Source: a virus. From it: 56,478 bases of DNA. The stretch is from positions 1 through 56,478 of IMG/VR virus record IMGVR_UViG_3300037487_000664; one strand, given 5' to 3'. Shown piece after piece: positions 1,066 through 56,175 of the stretch (within the stretch, counting starts at the first letter, position 1; each line of letters begins with the position of its first letter). The position numbers were made by a program, and so were the translations under genes. The notes beneath the pieces were generated by a model. It made no database searches. It was given only the letters and a program-made list of their open reading frames with translations, and was not told the origin of the DNA.

Positions 1066-3147
1066 TCAATCGGGAAAGAGCAGCTCTCCAAAAGAAACGT
1101 AGCCGTTCTCAAGGAGCAGGGGCGCGTTCAGCCCTTTGGCGAGGGACTTGATGGCGTTTAGAGTGTTCCGCCCGCGCTGGTCAGAGTGTCCCTCCTCCGG
1201 CCCCGGCACGCCTGCAGACACGCCGTCGATCAGCTCCTGCAGCGGCGCGCCCGTGAACCCAACACCCAGCGTCTGGATGTAGTCCATGACGGCCCGCTCC
1301 CAGCCGCCCATCTTGCGCACGCCCTTGGGCTCCTTCGGCGCGGCCACCGGCACCTCGGCCTCAGTCACGACCAGCGACGTAATCTCCTCGCCGTCACTGT
1401 CCAGACCGATGAGCACGCTCTCTAGTTTGAAGCCCCACGACAGGTCGTCGCGCCCGTCCTTCTGCTTGGTCACCTTCAACAGGCGCGCGTCACTGTCCTC
1501 GGGCCGGAACACCTCAATGGACGTGTCCGACGCAGCGTTTAAACCAGACCAGCCGCGTATGCCCTTGGCTTGGTCCTTGCCCGTGTGGGCGACCAACATG
1601 ATCACCGCGCCGGTGGCCTTGCGGATGGCGCGGGTGTGCTTCAGCGCCAGTCCCATGTCCTCGCCGCTGTTCTCGTTGGCCCCCGGCGTGGCCTGCGCCA
1701 GCGTGTCGATGATGATCAGGTCCGCGCCGCCTGCGTCAATGATTGCCTGCACCAACGCCGTCACATCGTCCTCGACCATGAGGTTGGGCGCGTCGTGGAT
1801 GACCCCCAGCGGGATGTCCTTGAGACTGACCCCGTGGTGCTGACTGTAGGCCCGCAGCCGCTGGGCGACGCCGCCGCCGCCCTCGGCGGCTATGTAAAGC
1901 ACCCTTTTACGTCGGACCTTCCGCTCGCGCCACGGCACGTCTCGGACGAGGGCCATGGCCATGTCCAGCACCATGAACGATTTGCCGGAGCCGCTGGCCC
2001 CGTAGACGACGATCAGGTCGGCCTGCTCGGGCAGGACGCCCTTGATCATAAACTCGACCGGCGGACGCTGTGAGAACTCGTCACCGGAGTAGACGTGAAA
2101 GCGGCCCGCCCAGTCAGTGGATGAGGCGAAGCGGTCGGGGTCGTGTTCTCGGCCCTGCGTCTCGGCCCGCGCTTCTTCAGCGGCGCGGTTGATCTGGTCA
2201 AAAGACCTTGGCTGTTCCCCCCGTTGCGCTCTGACGTCGGCGCTCATCTTCTTGACCGTCCGCATCGTGATGCGACGCCCGTTCGGGTCTCGCCGGTCGA
2301 AGCTGTCCCACTGCGCGCGCAGGCCGTCGGAGCCGGGGTACTGCGCCCCGCCGCTCGACCAGTCGTCCCACACGTCCAGACCCTCGGAGCCCAGCTCGTG
2401 GTGGAGGGCCATGCCGACCTGTATCCAGCCCTCGCGGCCCATGCCGGGGTCGAGGTCCGAGAGCAGGGCCTCGATGTCAGCCGCCCGCAGGCCGAGGGGC
2501 GGCTCGTAGTTGTCAAGGAAGTCGTCGGAACCGGTGGGCGCGGCGTGCGTCGGCCCAAAGCGCTGCTGCGAGAGGTTGATGACGCGCTCGTCAACCGGCG
2601 CGACGAAGTCCTCCAGCCCCAGAGCCTCGGTGTAGGGCAGGATGTTGCCCGTAAAGGTCACAAAACCTGAGCTACTGAACAATTCAAAACCGTAGTCGTT
2701 GTTGGCGTCCTTGTGGCTCTTGTGGTTGCCCAGCACGCCGCGAACGAAGGCCCGCACCCCGTTGCCGCTGGGGCTGTACTCGGCATAGGTCCGACTGACG
2801 ATGTCCTCGACCTCGGGAGGTAGTCTGCCGTCACTGTCTACGCAGTGGTCAAAGTCCAGCGCGGTGATGCCCCATTCGGGCATGAGCGCCAGCCCAACGC
2901 CGTCAAAGCCGAGGCGCGCTGCCGCGTCTCGCGCTGCCGCGAAGGTGGTCATCTTGGCCCGGTCCTCGGGCGCACCCTGCTTGCCATAGCGACGTTGGCC
3001 GGTGACGTAGTACGGCACCTTGCGGGCCTTGGCCTCGCCGGGGTGGTGTTCATTGCGCCAGCATAGCCAGCCCTGCAGCTCCCGCAGCTCTGAGGGGGCC
3101 TCGACGCGGCGGACGTGGGGCGAGATGGGGGACACGTTGCTGGCCAT
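1066..3147 (-). CDS. Bifunctional primase-helicase (AEP primase-polymerase, PriCT-like and RepA-type ATPase domains)
   Basis: A 693-residue replication protein. Residues 20-180 form an archaeo-eukaryotic-primase-like domain: the acidic metal site is LDFDHC (97-102), followed by YSPSGNGVRAF (124-134), which matches the SxSGxGxH-type motif of primase-polymerases. Residues 220-300 resemble a PriCT helical domain (EALLSDLDPGMGREGW). Residues 365-600 are a RecA-fold helicase/ATPase of RepA type: Walker A GASGSGKS (383-390) and Walker B LIIIDTLAQA with Asp481. It would prime and unwind DNA at the phage fork with the polymerase at 53622-55565. The start lies 8 bases after the stop of the regulator gene and lacks a clear ribosome site, so translational coupling is likely. 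No separate DnaB- or DnaG-type gene is visible. Confidence 0.9.
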   Translation of the reverse strand: MASNVSPISPHVRRVEAPSELRELQGWLCWRNEHHPGEAKARKVPYYVTGQRRYGKQGAPEDRAKMTTFAAARDAAARLGFDGVGLALMPEWGITALDFDHCVDSDGRLPPEVEDIVSRTYAEYSPSGNGVRAFVRGVLGNHKSHKDANNDYGFELFSSSGFVTFTGNILPYTEALGLEDFVAPVDERVINLSQQRFGPTHAAPTGSDDFLDNYEPPLGLRAADIEALLSDLDPGMGREGWIQVGMALHHELGSEGLDVWDDWSSGGAQYPGSDGLRAQWDSFDRRDPNGRRITMRTVKKMSADVRAQRGEQPRSFDQINRAAEEARAETQGREHDPDRFASSTDWAGRFHVYSGDEFSQRPPVEFMIKGVLPEQADLIVVYGASGSGKSFMVLDMAMALVRDVPWRERKVRRKRVLYIAAEGGGGVAQRLRAYSQHHGVSLKDIPLGVIHDAPNLMVEDDVTALVQAIIDAGGADLIIIDTLAQATPGANENSGEDMGLALKHTRAIRKATGAVIMLVAHTGKDQAKGIRGWSGLNAASDTSIEVFRPEDSDARLLKVTKQKDGRDDLSWGFKLESVLIGLDSDGEEITSLVVTEAEVPVAAPKEPKGVRKMGGWERAVMDYIQTLGVGFTGAPLQELIDGVSAGVPGPEEGHSDQRGRNTLNAIKSLAKGLNAPLLLENGYVSFGELLFPD

Positions 3148-5124: not shown

Positions 5125-5213
5125 GACGTGACACTCCATATGAAAGCGAGGATGGGTGCCCAGCAGAGCAGGGCTAGGCCGAAAGCTATCAATAATGCTG
5201 ATAGTCTGGTCAT
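5121..5213 (-). CDS. 30-aa single-span membrane peptide
   Basis: The frame starts at 5213 in an ATGA overlap with the pentapeptide-repeat gene and ends at 5121 in an ATGA overlap with the next gene. The peptide is [20 protein letters not shown] followed by [10 protein letters not shown]: one hydrophobic span of about 22 residues with one positive charge at the N-terminus. The exact overlaps at both ends argue that it is translated. It may be a small inner-membrane protein; no family is recognisable at this length. Confidence 0.5.
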
Positions 5214-5620
5214 TGGTCTGCCCCCGTCGCTTCGATGTGGGCCGCGCGCCACGTCTCAATGACCTCCCGTTGCCTAGCGATCTCGCGCAGGGCGCACTCG
5301 TAGTGCGTCGGCCCCCAAGACCAGCAGCTATCGGCGTGGGTGGTATTTTCAGCCGACCTGAGCAGGTCGGCCCCGCGCAGGTTGGCAGCGCGCAGGTCGG
5401 TCCCGCTCAGGTCGGCCCCGCTCAGGTCGGCCCAGCGCAGGTCGGCCCCGCGCAGGTTGGCCCCGAGCATGGCCGACCTGCTCAGGTCGGCCCCGCGTAG
5501 GTCGGCCCAGCACAGGTCGGCCATGCTCAGGTCGGCCCCGCGCAGGTCGGCCCCGCGCAGGTCGGCAGCGTCAACGGTATGCAGGACCGCGCCGGTATCT
5601 TTGTGTTTGATCTCAATCAT
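5210..5620 (-). CDS. Pentapeptide-repeat protein (136 aa)
   Basis: From about residue 19 there are some 14 consecutive A(D/N)LxX pentapeptides ([25 protein letters not shown] and so on), which fold as a right-handed quadrilateral beta-helix. A C-terminal tail ([20 protein letters not shown]) forms a helix. Some members of this fold mimic DNA and inhibit gyrase (QnrA, MfpA); that role here is only a possibility. The open frame extends to 5683, but AGGAGACCTGAAG is placed for the ATG at 5620 ([10 protein letters not shown]). It follows a likely promoter with a near-operator. The repeat DNA is itself repetitive (GGTCGGCCC units) and may vary in number. Confidence 0.9.
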
Positions 5621-5642
5621 GGTCTTCAGGTCTCCTTCAAGG

Positions 5643-5740: not shown

Positions 5741-6088
5741 CTACTCCTCCAGACTGCTGGCGAGCGCGTTGACGGGCTCCAGCAGGGCCTCAAGGCTGAC
5801 GTTGTAGTCACAGATGACGTCCCAGCCGCTGTTGCCGTAGACGAGGAAGACCCACGCGGTGTGGCCGTCCTTGCGGAGGTAGAGCCGGTCCTCGTCGGCC
5901 TCCATGATGTTGTCAGTCACCTCGGCCCGGTTGGTCGTCCACGGGTGCTGGCTGTCGCCGTCATCGACGCTCAGTTCGTAGCCCTCGGCCAGCGCGCGGT
6001 CGATCAGGGCGGTGACGATCCGGCGCTCGACCGCGATGCGGCGGCGGGTCTCGGGGTCGGTGATGTCGCTCAGGTTCTTGGGGTACAT
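5741..6088 (-). CDS. Phage protein of unknown function (115 aa)
   Basis: Begins MYPKNLSDITDPETRRRIAV. An N-terminal helix carries basic residues (RRRIAVERRIVTALIDRAL), then a beta-rich part (YELSVDDGDSQHP; DRLYLRKDGHTAWVFLVYGN) and a final helix. Proteins of this general layout recur in early regions of alpha- and betaproteobacterial phages without known function. The ribosome site is CGGAGACCTGAG, a member of the extended RBS family. A 38-bp repeat lies just upstream. Confidence 0.75.
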   Translation of the reverse strand: MYPKNLSDITDPETRRRIAVERRIVTALIDRALAEGYELSVDDGDSQHPWTTNRAEVTDNIMEADEDRLYLRKDGHTAWVFLVYGNSGWDVICDYNVSLEALLEPVNALASSLEE

Positions 6089-6097
6089 GGTCTCAGG

Positions 6098-6135
6098 TCT
6101 CCGTGGGACAGGGGGATCAGAACTCGTTCAGGCAG
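6098..6135. repeat. 38-bp direct repeat, copy A, with fossil 3' end of a duplicated gene
   Basis: Identical to 6421-6458. On the minus strand it contains codons for CLNEF and a stop, the C-terminus of the gene at 6440-6676, plus the following leader. Upstream residues (RLISQACLNEF) differ from the intact copy (FVSLICLNEF), so this is the decayed 3' end of a second copy of that gene. Confidence 0.8.
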
Positions 6136-6688: not shown

Positions 6689-6901
6689 TTACGGTGCGAT
6701 TTCAATGATCGAGACGACAAACATTGCGGCGAAGGCCAGAACGAACAGGGCGAGGCAGGCACCGCACAGGCCCACCGCTATCGCAACAGCCACGTTCTCG
6801 TAGCCGCTGCCGAACCCGCTGCGGTACTCCTTGATCGCGATGGCAATCCACAGGACGCCAAACAGAATGACAAGATACGACGTGGCGTCTTCGGGGGTCA
6901 T
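6689..6901 (-). CDS. Small two-span membrane protein (70 aa)
   Basis: The frame opens at 6961, but AGGAGACCTGAC is placed for the ATG at 6901 (MTPEDATSYLVILFGVLWIA). Hydrophobic segments at about residues 8-24 and 36-67 (VAVAIAVGLCGACLALFVLA) with a charged loop (KEYRSGFGSGYEN). Size and topology resemble a holin, but the early location and the separate lysis cassette at 33010-34337 make that unlikely. Transcribed from the operator-bearing promoter at 6952-6980. Confidence 0.75.
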   Translation of the reverse strand: MTPEDATSYLVILFGVLWIAIAIKEYRSGFGSGYENVAVAIAVGLCGACLALFVLAFAAMFVVSIIEIAP

Positions 6902-6951
6902 AGTCAGGTCTCCTAGGTGGCGGCGGGGGCGGTGCGCCCCGGCCTGTTGAT

Positions 6952-6980
6952 CTTCTAGCACTGCACCATTATGGGTGCAA
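6952..6980 (-). promoter_or_regulatory. Promoter with CACC-N6-GGTG operator, upstream of membrane protein gene
   Basis: On the minus strand TTGCAC (6980-6975), 17 bases, TAGAAG (6957-6952). The palindrome CACC-ATTATG-GGTG occupies 6964-6977, between the -35 and -10 boxes. The promoter at 50173-50201 has the same design and much of the same sequence (TTGCACC-N6-GGTGC-N-GTGCTA). Confidence 0.6.
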
Positions 6981-7302: not shown

Positions 7303-7611
7303 TCACGCCTTGCGGGCGCTGACCTTGACGGTGACGTAGGCCACGGTGGCCTTCTGGTGGCGGTTAAACCAGCGCCCGTCGACGCCCAGCTCGACCAGCT
7401 TGGCCTCCATGGCCTTGGGGTCGGGTGCCGAGCGGGCGGCGACCTCGGAGACGCTGGCGCGGTAGGCCGCGCCGTCATAGGCCCCGGCGCCCATCGCCTT
7501 GACCTCGTCGATCAGGAAAGCCTCGACGGCCTTGAGGTCGGCGATCTGCGCCTTGATGTCGCCCAGACGGTCGACGGGCGAGATGTTCGAGATGGTGGCG
7601 GCTATTGTCAT
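7303..7611 (-). CDS. Phage protein of unknown function (102 aa)
   Basis: Begins MTIAATISNISPVDRLGDIK. An N-terminal helical hairpin (IKAQIADLKAVEAFLIDEVK) is followed by a compact domain with ASVSEVAARSAPDP and a C-terminal strand (ATVAYVTVKVSARKA). This layout, ending in a V-x-V strand, is often seen in phage proteins of unknown function. Ribosome site GGAGACCTGAAC. First gene after the operator-bearing promoter at 7631-7683. Confidence 0.8.
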   Translation of the reverse strand: MTIAATISNISPVDRLGDIKAQIADLKAVEAFLIDEVKAMGAGAYDGAAYRASVSEVAARSAPDPKAMEAKLVELGVDGRWFNRHQKATVAYVTVKVSARKA

Positions 7612-7630
7612 GTTCAGGTCTCCAGTTTGC

Positions 7631-7683
7631 TGGGCCGTCCGGCCCCGATGTCTTCACCCTACAGGGTGCAGCATGGGGGTCAA
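7631..7683 (-). promoter_or_regulatory. Promoter cassette 1: TTGACC-16-TAGGGT, operator and leader hairpin
   Basis: On the minus strand TTGACC (7683-7678), 16 bases, TAGGGT (7661-7656). The palindrome CACC-CTACAG-GGTG (7655-7668) covers the -10 box. Just downstream the leader can form the hairpin GGGCC-GGAC-GGCCC (7632-7645). Same layout as the cassettes at 9288-9339 and 9822-9875. Confidence 0.7.
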
Positions 7684-9902: not shown

Positions 9903-10133
9903 TTAATTAGCCATCGGGCGGTACAGCCGCCCGACCTGCGCCAGATCGAACAGGCGCGAGGAGGCGTTGTCCCAAGAGGTCTGGTTGGCGCAGCCCGGGA
10001 CGCACTCGGCGGCGTTGTCGCTGGCGATCAGGGCGAGGGCCTCGATCACCTCGGCAAAGGAGGCGTGGGGGTTGGCCCCCATCGCGCGGCGCAGGTCGTC
10101 AGACAGGCGCTGGAGGGCTACGGCTTCGATCAT
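9903..10133 (-). CDS. Small protein, unknown function (76 aa)
   Basis: Begins MIEAVALQRLSDDLRRAMGA. Predicted helical, with two cysteines (ECVPGCANQ). No family recognised. Ribosome site AGGAGACCTGAC, an exact member of the extended RBS family; a GC-rich hairpin separates it from the upstream gene. Confidence 0.65.
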   Translation of the reverse strand: MIEAVALQRLSDDLRRAMGANPHASFAEVIEALALIASDNAAECVPGCANQTSWDNASSRLFDLAQVGRLYRPMAN

Positions 10134-10155
10134 GTCAGGTCTCCTTGGGTGAGGG

Positions 10156-12603: not shown

Positions 12604-12632
12604 TTGCCCTTTAGGATGCACCGCGCAGGGTG
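12604..12632 (+). promoter_or_regulatory. Promoter with CACC-N6-GGTG operator upstream of terL
   Basis: TTGCCC (12604-12609), 16 bases, CAGGGT (12626-12631); the operator CACC-GCGCAG-GGTG (12619-12632) covers the -10 exactly as in promoter cassettes 1-3. It would place packaging and head genes under the same regulator as the early cassettes. The boxes are weaker than those of the early promoters. The remaining sequence to 12735 shows nothing else I can name. Confidence 0.5.
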
Positions 12633-12735
12633 CAGGGCTGACGCGCGTCGGCTTAATCGCCTATTTGCACTTCCCAGCAAACGGCTCTACACCACGCCGT
12701 CGAAATTGACGCCGAGCCTACGGTGACTGTTGCAC

Positions 12736-49842: not shown

Positions 49843-49945
49843 AGGCCACTACGCCAGCCATCTGCCGGTACAACTCATGTTCTTCGGCGGCGGTGTAAGG
49901 CGGCTCATGGTAAGGGCTGCCGTAGTCGTCGTACTTACGTACCAT
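49775..49945 (-). CDS. 56-aa protein, antisense to the end of the late operon
   Basis: Starts MVRKYDDYGSPYHEPPYTAA and contains EEHELYRQMAGVVAFTRP, a pattern seen in short phage proteins of unknown function. AAAGGAGACTTGACGAC is a good ribosome site related to the extended RBS family. Its last 22 codons overlap the 3' end of the 758-aa gene on the opposite strand. It has its own operator-bearing promoter (49978-50006). Confidence 0.7.
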   Translation of the reverse strand: MVRKYDDYGSPYHEPPYTAAEEHELYRQMAGVVAFTRPFSGKAKTETLLDPPLQQP

Positions 49946-49976
49946 GTCGTCAAGTCTCCTTTGTTGTTACGGATTT

Positions 49977-50006
49977 CACCCTAATAGGTGAAGGCTTTCG
50001 TGTCTA
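49977..50006 (-). promoter_or_regulatory. Promoter with CACC-N6-GGTG operator for the 56-aa antisense gene
   Basis: On the minus strand TAGACA (50006-50001), 17 bases, TAGGGT (49983-49978). The operator CACC-CTAATA-GGTG (49977-49990), part of the longer palindrome TTCACC-N6-GGTGAA, covers the -10 as in promoter cassettes 1-3. No leader hairpin here. Confidence 0.6.
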
Positions 50007-50172: not shown

Positions 50173-50201
50173 TTGCACCTTGTTGGGTGCTGTGCTATAA
50201 A
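50173..50201 (+). promoter_or_regulatory. Strong promoter with CACC-N6-GGTG operator
   Basis: TTGCAC (50173-50178), 17 bases, TATAAA (50196-50201). The operator CACC-TTGTTG-GGTG (50176-50189) lies over the -35 and spacer. The best-matching promoter in the window; it drives the isolated gene at 50257-50472. Confidence 0.72.
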
Positions 50202-50256
50202 GGGTTGTTCCCGGCAATCGCGCCGAGAACAGCTCTTTGAAAAAGTGAGACCTGAA

Positions 50257-50472
50257 ATGCGCTACCTCCCTTATCCCGAGGCCGTTAAAACGACGGTTGG
50301 AAACAAGGTTAGCTGGAATGCCTACGCCGACCGCGAGACGGCTGAGCTTGCCGCCCAAACCGCAGAACACAACGCTCGGATTGCTGCAAGCGAAGGCTAT
50401 GACTTTGGGTATTGCTGCCCCGGCGATATTACCGTGACCAAAGACGGCTTGTTTGAAGTCTGTCTGCCGTAA
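50257..50472 (+). CDS. Small protein, unknown function, single-gene unit (71 aa)
   Basis: The frame opens at 50173, inside the promoter; the true start is the ATG at 50257 (MRYLPYPEAVKTTVGNKVSW), preceded by TGAGACCTGAA, a near match to the extended RBS. The body has a helix (DRETAELAAQTAEHNARIAA) and ends YCCPGDITVTKDGLFEVCLP. No family recognised. A strong promoter with operator in front and a strong terminator behind make it an independent, regulated early-type gene on the late strand. Confidence 0.75.
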   Translation: MRYLPYPEAVKTTVGNKVSWNAYADRETAELAAQTAEHNARIAASEGYDFGYCCPGDITVTKDGLFEVCLP

Positions 50473-53287: not shown

Positions 53288-53650
53288 TTACTTTCCGAAA
53301 CGCTTTTTGTTTTGATAGTCTGTTTCGGACATGACGCTCACAAAGGTCTTACCTTCGTGTTGGACTAGCGCGATCACTCGGTCGTATTCCAAGCCCTGTT
53401 CAGCCTCGAAATGCAAAACGACAGAAGTACTCCCCCGAGACAGATCGCCCCGCATATCTGCGTTGGTCAGCGTTGAACCGTCGGCGTTCACGCGCACGCA
53501 GGTTCCTTTGTCCGGCGTGTGGTTAAACATCTCAAGATATGAAAAGTGAGTATCGTTATCCAAAGAGTAATCGTATCCGTTGGAAAAATCGTGGTGGTAC
53601 TCGTTAATAAGTTTCATCAGCTCAGCCTTTTCTGTAGCGTTTGGTTTCAA
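53288..53650 (-). CDS. Protein of unknown function, A/T-richer than neighbours (120 aa)
   Basis: Begins MKPNATEKAELMKLINEYHH. Contains DFSNGYDYSLDNDTHFSYLE and a beta-rich second half (GSTSVVLHFEAEQGLEYDRV; GKTFVSVMSETDYQNKKRFG). No family recognised. Its base composition looks clearly less G+C-rich than the polymerase gene, which suggests recent arrival. It overlaps the polymerase 3' end by 29 bases. Confidence 0.7.
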   Translation of the reverse strand: MKPNATEKAELMKLINEYHHDFSNGYDYSLDNDTHFSYLEMFNHTPDKGTCVRVNADGSTLTNADMRGDLSRGSTSVVLHFEAEQGLEYDRVIALVQHEGKTFVSVMSETDYQNKKRFGK

Positions 53651-55565
53651 AGCCTGCCGCCGCGAGGGGCAGGCCCACGGCCCACTGTGGACCGGTAGAC
53701 ATCAGCTTGGCCAGACCCTCGTGCGTGTACTCGGGGCTGTCTGGCGTCTCGCACAGCAGTTCGTCGTGGACGTGCAGGACGATGGGGTAGCCCGCCGCCT
53801 CGGCGTGGCGCATGCCGCAGGTCAGGATGTCCCGCGCAGCGGCCTGCGTCGCGTTCTCGACCAACTTGCCGCCGTAGGTGTCCAACCGGGTCCACTTGCG
53901 GGTGTACTGGTCAGTGCCCTCGTAGGACAGCTTGCCTGCGTCGTCGATGGCGGCGTTGGGGTAGCAGAGGTAGCGGCTCGACGGCAGGCCCACCCGCAGC
54001 CACGTCCCGTCGACGCGGAAGACCAGCTTGCCCGCCGTGTACGCCTTGCCCGGCGTCGCGAGCGCAAGGCGCGCGGCCTCCTCCGTCAACTTCCAGAAGG
54101 TTTTCGTAGCGGAGTGCGCCTTGCGCCACGCCTCTACCAGCTCCTTGACGCGCCAATCGGGCAGCTCGATGCCGTAGAGCCCGGCCATCTTGGCAAATGC
54201 GCCGCTCCCGCCCTGATAGCCCAGCGCCAGCTCCATGACCTTGCCGATCTGGCGCTCGTCCGGGGTCACGTCCTCGGGCTTCTTGCTGAAGGAGCGGGCA
54301 TAGGCCAGCTTGTAGAGGTCGGGGCCGATGCCCCGGTCGAAGTCGGCGAAGGCGTCCAGCTTCCACTGCTCGCCCGCCAAGAACGCCAGCATGCGCCCCT
54401 CGATGTTGGACAGATCGGCAATGACCAGCTTCTTGCCGGGGGCCGCTACGAGACAGCCGCGCACGGCGGACGTGCAGAGTTCCACGACGTTGTCGAACAG
54501 CATGTCCTCAACGTCCGCCTTCATGGCGGCAATGCCCACCTCGATCTCGGCGTGCTTCATCGTCGGGCGCGGCAGGTTCTGGGGCTGGAATAAGCGCCCG
54601 CCCCAGCGGCCCGTCCTACTGGCACCGCAGAACTGCAGGGTGCCCCGGAGGCGTCCGTCACTTGACGCTGCGTTAGAAAGAGTGCGGTACTTAGCTGGGC
54701 TCGTCGCCGACGCCTGCGCCCGGTTCTCCAGCAGTGCGCGGATGTCGGAGGTTAGATCGTCCCGCAGTAGCAGCTTGTCGATTGTGCCTCCCCGAAGGTC
54801 ATCAGTCTCAAGCCCAAGTTGCCGCAGGTGGTCGAGGGTCTTGCCGCGCTGGCTGGTGTTGGTCACGGCCCCACCCGTCAGCGCGGCAGCTTCCTGCGCG
54901 AGGCGTTTAGACGCCCTCTGCGCGGCGCGCTGCGCCACCTCGGCCAGTTCGCGGTCGACGGCGATGCCCCGGTCGTTGATCGTCTGGTCGAGCCGCCACA
55001 TCTCCAGCTCTCGGCCCCGGTAGTTCCAGATAGGCAGGCGGCTGTAGACCTCGCGCATGGCCTCCACGTCGAGGCGCGCATATTCAATAAAATCCTGCCA
55101 CACCTCGGGATGAGTTTCGGTGGTGGCGCGGGCCAGTGTCCGGTTCCGGCCCAGAGGCTTTGTAAACAGGTGGATGAGCTTCTTGCCGTCCTTGTCCTTA
55201 GCCTTGTCAAACGGCACCTCTAGCACGTCGCAAAGCGCGCCCAGCGCGGCAGGCAGGCTGTGCGCCAGCGCCTGCACCATCGTGTCGTGAACCTTCTCCA
55301 CGGGCGCGTTTACACCCTGCCAGCGCAAGACCGTCCGGTCGAAGGCGCTGTTGTGGATGACGATCTTGTCGGCGGCGTCGATGGCCGTCTGCAGCCGGAC
55401 TAGGTAGGCCGCTCGGTTGCCGTCGGTGCAGTCCCACACCTCGACCGGCGCGTCGTCCACGGCCTGCGCAATCAGCAGCACCTCGGCCCGCTCGGCGTAG
55501 GCGTGCGTGCCGTGCGCAATAGGCACGGCACAGTACGTTTCGAGGTCGAGGAAGAGGGTGGTCAC
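53622..55565 (-). CDS. Family A DNA polymerase with 3'-5' exonuclease domain
   Basis: 647 residues. Exonuclease: Exo I FLDLETY (5-11), Exo II HNSAFDR (71-77), Exo III EYARLDVEAM (161-170). Polymerase: SRTGRWGGR (316-324), motif A IADLSNIEGR with Asp384, motif B region RQIGKVMELALGYQGG (438-453), motif C HVHDELL (598-604). The motif A form DLSNIEGR in place of DYSQIELR marks the phage-type polymerase subgroup, distinct from host PolI. No 5' nuclease domain. It is the replicative polymerase; ATGA overlap with the HTH gene in front. Confidence 0.93.
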   Translation of the reverse strand: MTTLFLDLETYCAVPIAHGTHAYAERAEVLLIAQAVDDAPVEVWDCTDGNRAAYLVRLQTAIDAADKIVIHNSAFDRTVLRWQGVNAPVEKVHDTMVQALAHSLPAALGALCDVLEVPFDKAKDKDGKKLIHLFTKPLGRNRTLARATTETHPEVWQDFIEYARLDVEAMREVYSRLPIWNYRGRELEMWRLDQTINDRGIAVDRELAEVAQRAAQRASKRLAQEAAALTGGAVTNTSQRGKTLDHLRQLGLETDDLRGGTIDKLLLRDDLTSDIRALLENRAQASATSPAKYRTLSNAASSDGRLRGTLQFCGASRTGRWGGRLFQPQNLPRPTMKHAEIEVGIAAMKADVEDMLFDNVVELCTSAVRGCLVAAPGKKLVIADLSNIEGRMLAFLAGEQWKLDAFADFDRGIGPDLYKLAYARSFSKKPEDVTPDERQIGKVMELALGYQGGSGAFAKMAGLYGIELPDWRVKELVEAWRKAHSATKTFWKLTEEAARLALATPGKAYTAGKLVFRVDGTWLRVGLPSSRYLCYPNAAIDDAGKLSYEGTDQYTRKWTRLDTYGGKLVENATQAAARDILTCGMRHAEAAGYPIVLHVHDELLCETPDSPEYTHEGLAKLMSTGPQWAVGLPLAAAGFETKRYRKG

Positions 55566-55837
55566 CCCCGCGTGCCGTAGAGGGCTTCGCTGACGCGCCC
55601 GATGTTGACGCCGAACTCGCGCGCAACCTCCATCTGGGGGGCCTTGGGGTGCGCGGCGCAGTATGCGCGGATCGCCTCCGCCCTCTCTGGCGTCAGGGCT
55701 AGAGCGCGCACGGGAGACTTGCGCCCATTGTACCGGCGAAAGGTGGCGTCGGCCAAGAAGTTAAGCTCGGGGCAATCCAGCTCGACGGCAAGTTCGCGCA
55801 TACGCGCCCGGATAGCGGGGATCGTGAGATCGTGCAT
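55562..55837 (-). CDS. Small helix-turn-helix protein (91 aa)
   Basis: Begins MHDLTIPAIRARMRELAVEL. The C-terminal half LTPERAEAIRAYCAAHPKAP followed by QMEVAREFGVNIGRVSEAL is a helix-turn-helix of the type that precedes replication genes in phages (a WxRAEF/VxxGRVSE pattern). Probably regulates the replication operon. AAGGACA ribosome site; the hairpin at 55861-55897 lies between this gene and the GapR-like gene. Confidence 0.75.
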   Translation of the reverse strand: MHDLTIPAIRARMRELAVELDCPELNFLADATFRRYNGRKSPVRALALTPERAEAIRAYCAAHPKAPQMEVAREFGVNIGRVSEALYGTRG

Positions 55838-55860
55838 AACAATGTCCTTGAGGTTGCGTC

Positions 55861-55897
55861 GCCCCCCGCCCGGAGACCTGACTTCTAAGCGGGGGGC
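55861..55897 (-). promoter_or_regulatory. Intercistronic hairpin with loop complementary to the shared extended RBS
   Basis: GCCCCCCGC and GCGGGGGGC form a 9-bp GC stem with a 19-base loop. In the minus-strand transcript the loop contains UCAGGUCUCC (55881-55872), the exact complement of GGAGACCTGA, which is the ribosome site of seven genes in this window. It could bind those leaders in trans. It may equally be a simple attenuator whose loop matches by descent from an inverted RBS. Confidence 0.45.
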
Positions 55898-55908
55898 GCG
55901 CGGGCTAC

Positions 55909-56175
55909 CTAGACGAGGTCTAGACAGCCCATGGCGGCAGCGTATAGCTCCAACATCGCCTTGTCCTCCAGCAACTTGGTCCGGTCCTTCTTACGAAGGG
56001 AGACCAGTTTGCGAAGAGACTTGGTGTCGAAACCGCTGCCTTTGGCCTCCGCGTACACCTCATTGATGTACTCGGCGGCGACGGCCTTCTCGTCCTCCAG
56101 CGTCTCAACCCGCTCGATAATCGAGCGGAGCTGGTCGCTGGCGACGGGCGGGCCGTTGTGGCCAACGTCCGGCAT
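55909..56175 (-). CDS. GapR-like (DUF2312) nucleoid-associated protein (88 aa)
   Basis: Close match in layout to GapR/DUF2312: SDQLRSIIERVETLEDEKAV then AAEYINEVYAEAKGSGFDTK and SLRKLVSLRKKDRTKLLEDK, ending AMLELYAAAMG. In Alphaproteobacteria GapR is a tetramer that clamps overtwisted DNA ahead of forks and stimulates topoisomerases. Encoded here between the single-strand-binding protein and polymerase, it probably supports phage replication or competes with host GapR. The ATG overlaps the previous stop (TGATG). Confidence 0.9.
   Translation of the reverse strand: MPDVGHNGPPVASDQLRSIIERVETLEDEKAVAAEYINEVYAEAKGSGFDTKSLRKLVSLRKKDRTKLLEDKAMLELYAAAMGCLDLV

Follow-up and report, generated by a model that had tools for sequence, protein, structure and literature searches.

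The 56,478-nucleotide virus sequence IMGVR_UViG_3300037487_000664 from IMG/VR, analysed over its full length and referred to here as the window, contains on its – strand a hairpin whose loop is an exact complement of a ribosome-binding site (RBS) that recurs in front of seven phage genes. On the sequence evidence, this hairpin is fairly likely to be a conserved phage antisense RNA that pairs with the RBSs of a set of genes, probably repressing them. An antisense function of the loop, as claimed in the original prediction, is supported because the loop is conserved over a compensating stem, because loop and RBS family occur together in relatives, and because an independent parallel exists in mycobacteriophages of subcluster K1; the interpretation as a whole is supported in part.

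Repeated RBS and antisense hairpin in the window

The sequence GGAGACCTGA is present without mismatch at the ribosome site of seven – strand genes, directly 5' of their start codons, at positions 742–751 (ATG at 739), 1019–1028 (GTG at 1017), 5626–5635 (ATG at 5620), 6093–6102 (ATG at 6088), 6904–6913 (ATG at 6901), 7614–7623 (ATG at 7611) and 10135–10144 (ATG at 10133), as had been predicted for all seven starts. The 9-of-10 match that was also predicted before the + strand start at 50257 was confirmed and is TGAGACCTGA (50246–50255, + strand), which has lost the first base. A variant overlooked at that stage, GGAGACTTGA (49950–49959, – strand), precedes the ATG at 49945, and its pairing with the loop is preserved by a G.U pair. 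These sites are of the type known in mycobacteriophages as start-associated sequences (SAS), and we use that term for them.

With at most one mismatch, GGAGACCTGA has 13 matches in the window versus 3.1 expected, a number that was not reached in any of 100 shuffles, and the chance expectation for the exact 10-mer is 0.09 per genome. In 76 alphaproteobacterial genomes (0.6–6.5 Mb), the arrangement GGAGACCTGA-N0-4-ATG was found at 24 sites, with most genomes having none. This rarity rules out a common host RBS, and GGAGACCTGA is therefore not ordinary or borrowed host RBS usage. Recent duplication as the source of the copies was also ruled out, given that their flanks have only the motif itself in common. 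Among start sites in the contigs examined, 45 carry the exact motif and 7 a copy with one mismatch. The usual alphaproteobacterial anti-Shine-Dalgarno (anti-SD) sequence pairs only with the GGAG of GGAGACCTGA; the earlier statement that conservation extends six bases beyond the need of 16S rRNA is correct if the host of this phage has the usual anti-SD. Openness is slightly higher at the RBS copies than at other Shine-Dalgarno (SD) sites (0.48 versus 0.42).

The sole further exact copy of GGAGACCTGA in the window is located on the + strand at 55872–55881, where the – strand RNA reads UCAGGUCUCC. It falls in the loop of a 39-nt – strand hairpin at 55860–55898, with the RNA sequence CGCCCCCCGC UU [AGAAGUCAGGUCUCC] GG GCGGGGGGCG (loop in brackets). 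The arms (55889–55898 and 55860–55869) form 10 perfect pairs and are extended inwards by two U.G pairs (55887–55888 with 55870–55871), giving a 12-bp stem around the 15-nt loop AGAAGUCAGGUCUCC (55872–55886), of which the 3' 11 nt, GUCAGGUCUCC, are complementary to GGAGACCUGAC. The full 10-base complement in the loop is as originally described, but the stem, then given as 9 bp and GC, is larger. The minimum free energy is –33.3 kcal/mol (z of –3.7 relative to dinucleotide shuffles). For the eight RBSs tested, pairing energies with the loop range from –18.5 to –23.2 kcal/mol, compared with –2.1 to –15.5 kcal/mol for other starts. The element combines a stable stem with a loop complementary to an RBS, both of which are expected of an RBS-targeting antisense RNA. 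The window has 12 comparable perfect hairpins, and the number of exact-motif matches expected by chance in their loops taken together is about 1e-4; this expectation, together with the shuffle counts and the relatives, rules out a chance match between loop and RBS.

A test for a rho-independent terminator revealed no T run after the window hairpin, the tail being ACGCAACCTCAAGG. Rfam gave no match in the window and none near the hairpin at an E value below 1, and the 39-nt sequence had no match among named phages.

Conservation among relatives

Relatives were obtained by scanning IMG/VR with the family A DNA polymerase (pol) of the window and with the hairpin pattern. Four further independent contigs contain the element: G001 (91% for the polymerase), G003 (69%), G004 (60%; identical to G006) and G005. 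The place of the hairpin, after gapR and before pol, is constant in all of them. The loop AGAAGUCAGGUCUCC is identical in G001, G004 and G005; G003 has a different stem and the loop UUUCAGGUCUCG, which agrees at 9 of 10 positions. Conservation across the element is strongest in the loop. Of the 12 stem pairs, 6 are altered on both sides, and none of 500 shuffles was as high on any measure, with four distinct sequences being available for this comparison. In both the window and G003, the inner U.G pairs exist only on the strand running in the direction of the SAS genes, the opposite strand giving A.C, which points to an RNA of SAS-gene polarity.

On the same strand as the hairpin, G004 has 10 exact and 2 near copies of the RBS, G003 has 4 exact and 1 near copy, and G005, a 26-kb partial contig, has 2 exact copies. 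The contig of G001 is without the early region and hence provides no RBS count. Wherever a contig of the window family covers both regions, loop and RBS family are both present. Two additional contigs found by their RBSs, G010 (7 copies) and G021 (10 copies), have no antisense copy and appear to end before the gapR–pol junction. Among seven start sites with a single substitution, three keep the pairing with the loop by G.U (C7T twice and A5G), as does a C6T change before a GTG start in G004 that is outside the seven-site filter; the A3C site of G005 is probably not an RBS. Such substitutions favour RNA pairing in a manner that is suggestive only and weak on its own. No lineage was found in which SAS and loop had changed in a matching way, the loop of G003 being short of one end base. 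With moderate support, the polymerase tree united the window, G001, G003 and G004 in a single clade; G005, with a partial polymerase, was placed elsewhere, and the co-occurrence of loop and RBS therefore does not represent many independent events. Matches to the loop motif within coding sequence of L076 and L077 were rejected as chance, given that no hairpin is present.

We also examined relatives that do not have this RBS. Approximately 80 polymerase relatives (about 60% identity) do not contain the GGAGACCTGA family. A hairpin is often present in this position, but its loop differs (GUUGGAAGUCA, UUGGAAG or GUUGGGUC) and it is often followed by a T-rich tail, with such tails being found only outside the SAS clade. 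A sister group (L363, L364, L395, L429 and L467) has a hairpin just before pol with the 9-nt, anti-SD-like loop UCCUUCUCC, and it has neither the GGAGACCTGA family nor a matching repeated RBS. Relatives free of the RBS family thus have other loops, indicating that loop and RBS family go together. Two candidates for a different loop–RBS pair were not sustained: GGAGAAGGA, the counterpart considered for the loop of L363 and L429, was not clearly enriched at starts over control, and no starts matched the loop GUUGGAAGUCA of the L090 group as an RBS antisense.

In many polymerase relatives, among them L117, L120, L122, L124 and L125, two structures lie between gapR and pol: first a terminator-like hairpin and then a second, large inverted structure, TTCTGGCGGACCGCGCC ... 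GGCGCGGTCCACCAGAA. The latter contains a conserved GTTGCTGATAAC or GTTGTTGGTAAC, adjoins the next start and has no Rfam match; it is possibly an attenuator or an origin.

Other SAS-like repeated RBSs were apparent in L013 (GGAGAACCGA), L136 (AGGAGACAC) and L430 (GGAGAACGA), for which an antisense hairpin was not found; L013 and Microbacterium phage AnnaSerena, both without such a hairpin, were therefore rejected as further cases of a matched loop and RBS. In L223, an unrelated contig too short to reveal a hairpin, GGAGACCTGAC(C)ATG is present at three starts and one divergent start (about 2180–3080). An unbiased search through 427 loci asked which recurrent RBS 10-mers also have an antisense copy within the loop of a hairpin. 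Under its strict stem rule, which misses the K1 cases, the only result beyond the known loci was one likely chance match, in TM4.

A parallel in cluster K mycobacteriophages

SAS and their extended form (ESAS) have been described in cluster K mycobacteriophages (Pope 2011, PMC3203893) and in Microbacterium phages of cluster EF (PMC7302621). The SAS was suspected of binding host or phage RNA or protein, and a single SAS in the opposite orientation was reported in 2011 for subcluster K1 and left unexplained (PMC3203893). The role of SAS was still called undefined in a 2024 study of Adephagia and in a 2025 survey of 188 cluster K phages.

We found that the opposite copy of K1 lies in the loop of a strong hairpin in four of four cases, GCGCGG [CCUCCUAUCC] CCGCGC within a longer stem (z of –5.9 for Angelica), the loop CCUCCUAUCC facing the K1 SAS GGGATAGGAG. 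The 34-nt core of this hairpin has matches in 109 records. Its loop is invariant in ten aligned K1-type genomes with the exception of one inserted C in LilPharaoh, and its outer stem is variable, showing G.U and compensating changes, with 97% of cells pairing (9 distinct sequences). In Adephagia, the core is located at 58,673–58,706 between genes 92 and 93, the gap in which late transcription begins according to RNA-seq (PMC11373665). A hairpin produced at the onset of late transcription would meet the SAS of early genes. Rfam gave only sub-threshold matches at the K1 locus, outside the hairpin, and the anti-SAS hairpin is not described in the SAS literature examined, which excludes the 2019 ZoeJ paper.

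Three candidates in this group were discarded. A compensating change in the loop of Ekdilam was ruled out, its SAS being unchanged; no new repeated target was found for the new loop of SirPhilip; and the opposite SAS of ZoeJ is not an antisense copy but the RBS of the divergent gene 40. In KiSi (L423, about 390), a K1-type stem is retained at the corresponding place and the anti-SAS loop has been replaced or lost.

Genomic setting and upstream palindromes

In the transcript of the window, the hairpin is directly preceded by a gapR-like gene (55909–56175; PF10073, E value of 8e-27) and is followed by a gene for a 91-amino acid protein of unknown function (55562–55837; phrog_23243) and then by the gene for family A DNA polymerase (53622–55565; PF00476), with all four elements on the – strand. 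Synteny with Caulobacter phage RW indicated that the window is a circular permutation, in which the – strand block at 1–12 kb continues into 56.5–50.5 kb and the early – strand region is divided between both ends. The SAS genes and the hairpin therefore belong to a single early region of uniform direction, in which the hairpin is placed towards the distal side.

The genes led by an exact SAS, all on the – strand, encode proteins of 126 and 91 amino acids (359–739 and 742–1017, both unknown), 136 amino acids (5210–5620, matching annotated pentapeptide-repeat genes) and 115 amino acids (5741–6088, phrog_4158, unknown), as well as three proteins without a family, of 70 (6689–6901), 102 (7303–7611) and 76 (9903–10133) amino acids.

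Some of the SAS copies have a palindrome upstream. ESAS-like – strand palindromes, with the form GCACCC-N4-TGGTGC at 6963–6978, lie upstream of the SAS at 6904, of that at 7614 (palindrome at 7654–7669) and of the variant SAS at 49950 (palindrome at 49976–49991). Further 16-bp palindromes are present on the – strand of the window at 12618–12633 and 50175–50190, and in relatives at 55848, 58469, 59285 and 61369 of G004, 26839 of G003 and 20530 of G005. In four genomes, 9 of the 27 SAS copies have the 16-bp palindrome GCACC-N6-GGTGC at a distance of 30–67 nt upstream, often preceded by a TTGAC-like box. The palindrome is probably a repeated promoter-operator and the predicted counterpart of the mycobacteriophage ESAS.

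Proposed mechanism and alternative explanations

According to the antisense interpretation, the hairpin would be transcribed on the strand of the early and replication genes, and its 15-nt loop, carried by a GC-clamped stem, would present GUCAGGUCUCC. Given that no U-tract or promoter of its own is evident, a short RNA would be freed by cleavage or 3'-end processing. The loop would then pair in trans over 10–12 bp with GGAGACCUGA(C), the start-associated RBS of seven or eight – strand genes; by covering the SD bases, this pairing would compete with the ribosome and block initiation. The gene set would be repressed coordinately after enough hairpin RNA had built up from the gapR–pol transcript. 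In the window, the boundary set by such a switch would fall between the first early genes and replication; in K1, it would fall between early and late genes.

We put forward more tentatively, as a possibility, that unrelated phages independently evolved an RBS tag together with one trans-acting antisense hairpin that turns off a whole early gene set. If so, the hairpin would supply the missing ligand of SAS in K1 mycobacteriophages, and it offers a concrete, testable candidate in a group for which a host, phage engineering and RNA-seq exist; the late leader or a short RNA of Adephagia would be expected to contain GCGCGGCCUCCUAUCCCCGCGC. One RNA loop and a common RBS tag would amount to post-transcriptional control of a phage regulon, and a repeated RBS with a single antisense copy in a hairpin loop provides a search rule for other phages.

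Several observations weigh against an antisense function. The original prediction named relatives that keep the RBS family without a matching loop as evidence against it. None was found in the window family, but SAS without an anti-SAS hairpin are present in TM4, ZoeJ, Pixie, Kratio, Unicorn and AnnaSerena (K2, K3, K5, K6 and EF), so that a general conservation of SAS cannot be attributed to the hairpin. SirPhilip (L417, about 20035) keeps the K1-type stem and 9 SAS copies with the loop replaced, the loop of Ekdilam is degraded with 16 SAS cores intact, and covariation in K1 is modest, with only 2 double-change pairs. Either SAS have a translation role of their own that is exploited by the hairpin, or different groups have different ligands. 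The window hairpin is encoded on the early strand together with its targets and not in a late transcript, and it has no U-tract or dedicated promoter that would give an obvious short RNA. The window-family sample consists of five contigs, mostly of one clade. Finally, up to half of the TGA triplets of SAS could double as the stop of an upstream frame, and such overlap may explain part of the conservation at the last three SAS bases.

Well-studied phage and plasmid antisense RNAs that cover SD bases repress. This background bears on the alternative that survives best, namely that loop and RBS interact positively or as a sink, with SAS mRNAs being protected or delivered to a factor, or with SAS leaders titrating the hairpin RNA and thereby controlling another role of the hairpin such as cis processing of the gapR–pol transcript. 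It would predict the same conservation and co-occurrence, the hairpin lies within the presumed transcript of gapR and pol, and the sequence does not give the direction of the effect. We nevertheless consider it unlikely, given that the pairing covers the SD bases, which in the case of c4 RNA results in repression (PMC12197685).

An ordinary terminator or processing hairpin at the end of gapR, with a loop match arising by chance or drift, appears distinctly improbable. Whereas relatives outside the SAS clade do have a hairpin here with a T-rich tail, like an intrinsic terminator, the SAS clade has no T run, the loop is conserved over a changed stem in divergent lineages, the chance of the match is about 1e-4, and a second independent case exists in K1. 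Slightly less probable still is a protein that recognises GGAGACCTGA, as DNA or as RNA at starts, with the hairpin copy serving as an extra site, for example at a replication origin. The fixed orientation of the copies and their fixed distance to the start codon, the restriction of the lone opposite copy to a hairpin loop and never a start, and the G.U pairs that would be A.C on the other strand all speak for RNA pairing, and a protein that binds the sense motif in RNA would not read its complement, even though the hairpin is within the replication region and protein binding has been suspected for cluster K SAS (PMC3203893). We give least credence to the notion that the conservation of SAS reflects nothing more than a specialised translation signal and that the hairpin is a later, minor add-on of little regulatory weight, which would fit the cluster K and EF phages that have SAS alone but not the joint presence of loop and RBS family in every window-family contig covering both regions or the loop being better conserved than the rest of the element.

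Comparison with known systems

The RBS family of the window resembles the SAS of cluster K in being an over-conserved repeated RBS composed of an SD core and bases that do not pair with 16S rRNA, in its location a few nucleotides before the starts of non-structural genes in one orientation, and in its rarity in bacterial genomes. Palindromes that may overlap promoters, as in ESAS, are present just upstream of some copies, and, as in K1, a single opposite copy is located within a hairpin loop. Given that GGAGACCTGA and the cluster K consensus GGGATAGGAGCCC are unrelated in sequence and belong to different phage families, the two systems are analogous, not homologous.

Alphaproteobacterial trans-acting small RNAs with anti-SD loops pair through a short unpaired loop with the RBSs of many mRNAs, and the window hairpin would resemble them in this respect. 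Those RNAs match a generic SD, whereas the loop in the window matches bases beyond the SD that are specific to the gene set of the phage. P22 sar and lambda OOP RNAs are each encoded opposite a single target with long complementarity, whereas the window hairpin is encoded elsewhere and has a 10–12 nt match to a family of sites. To our knowledge, one loop matching a whole RBS-tagged gene set has not been described in the literature searched. The earlier statement that no such RNA is known in phages was too strong, however, in that P1/P7 c4 as well as sar and OOP, which are phage-encoded antisense RNAs repressing a phage gene, act on one message each (PMC12197685 and work cited therein). The c4 RNA of P1 and P7 is similar to what is proposed for the window hairpin in being a phage antisense RNA that covers a ribosome-binding site, with complementary stretches that are likely in loops (PMC12197685). 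It differs in that c4 targets one message, that of ant, whereas the loop in the window matches seven or more genes through their common RBS.
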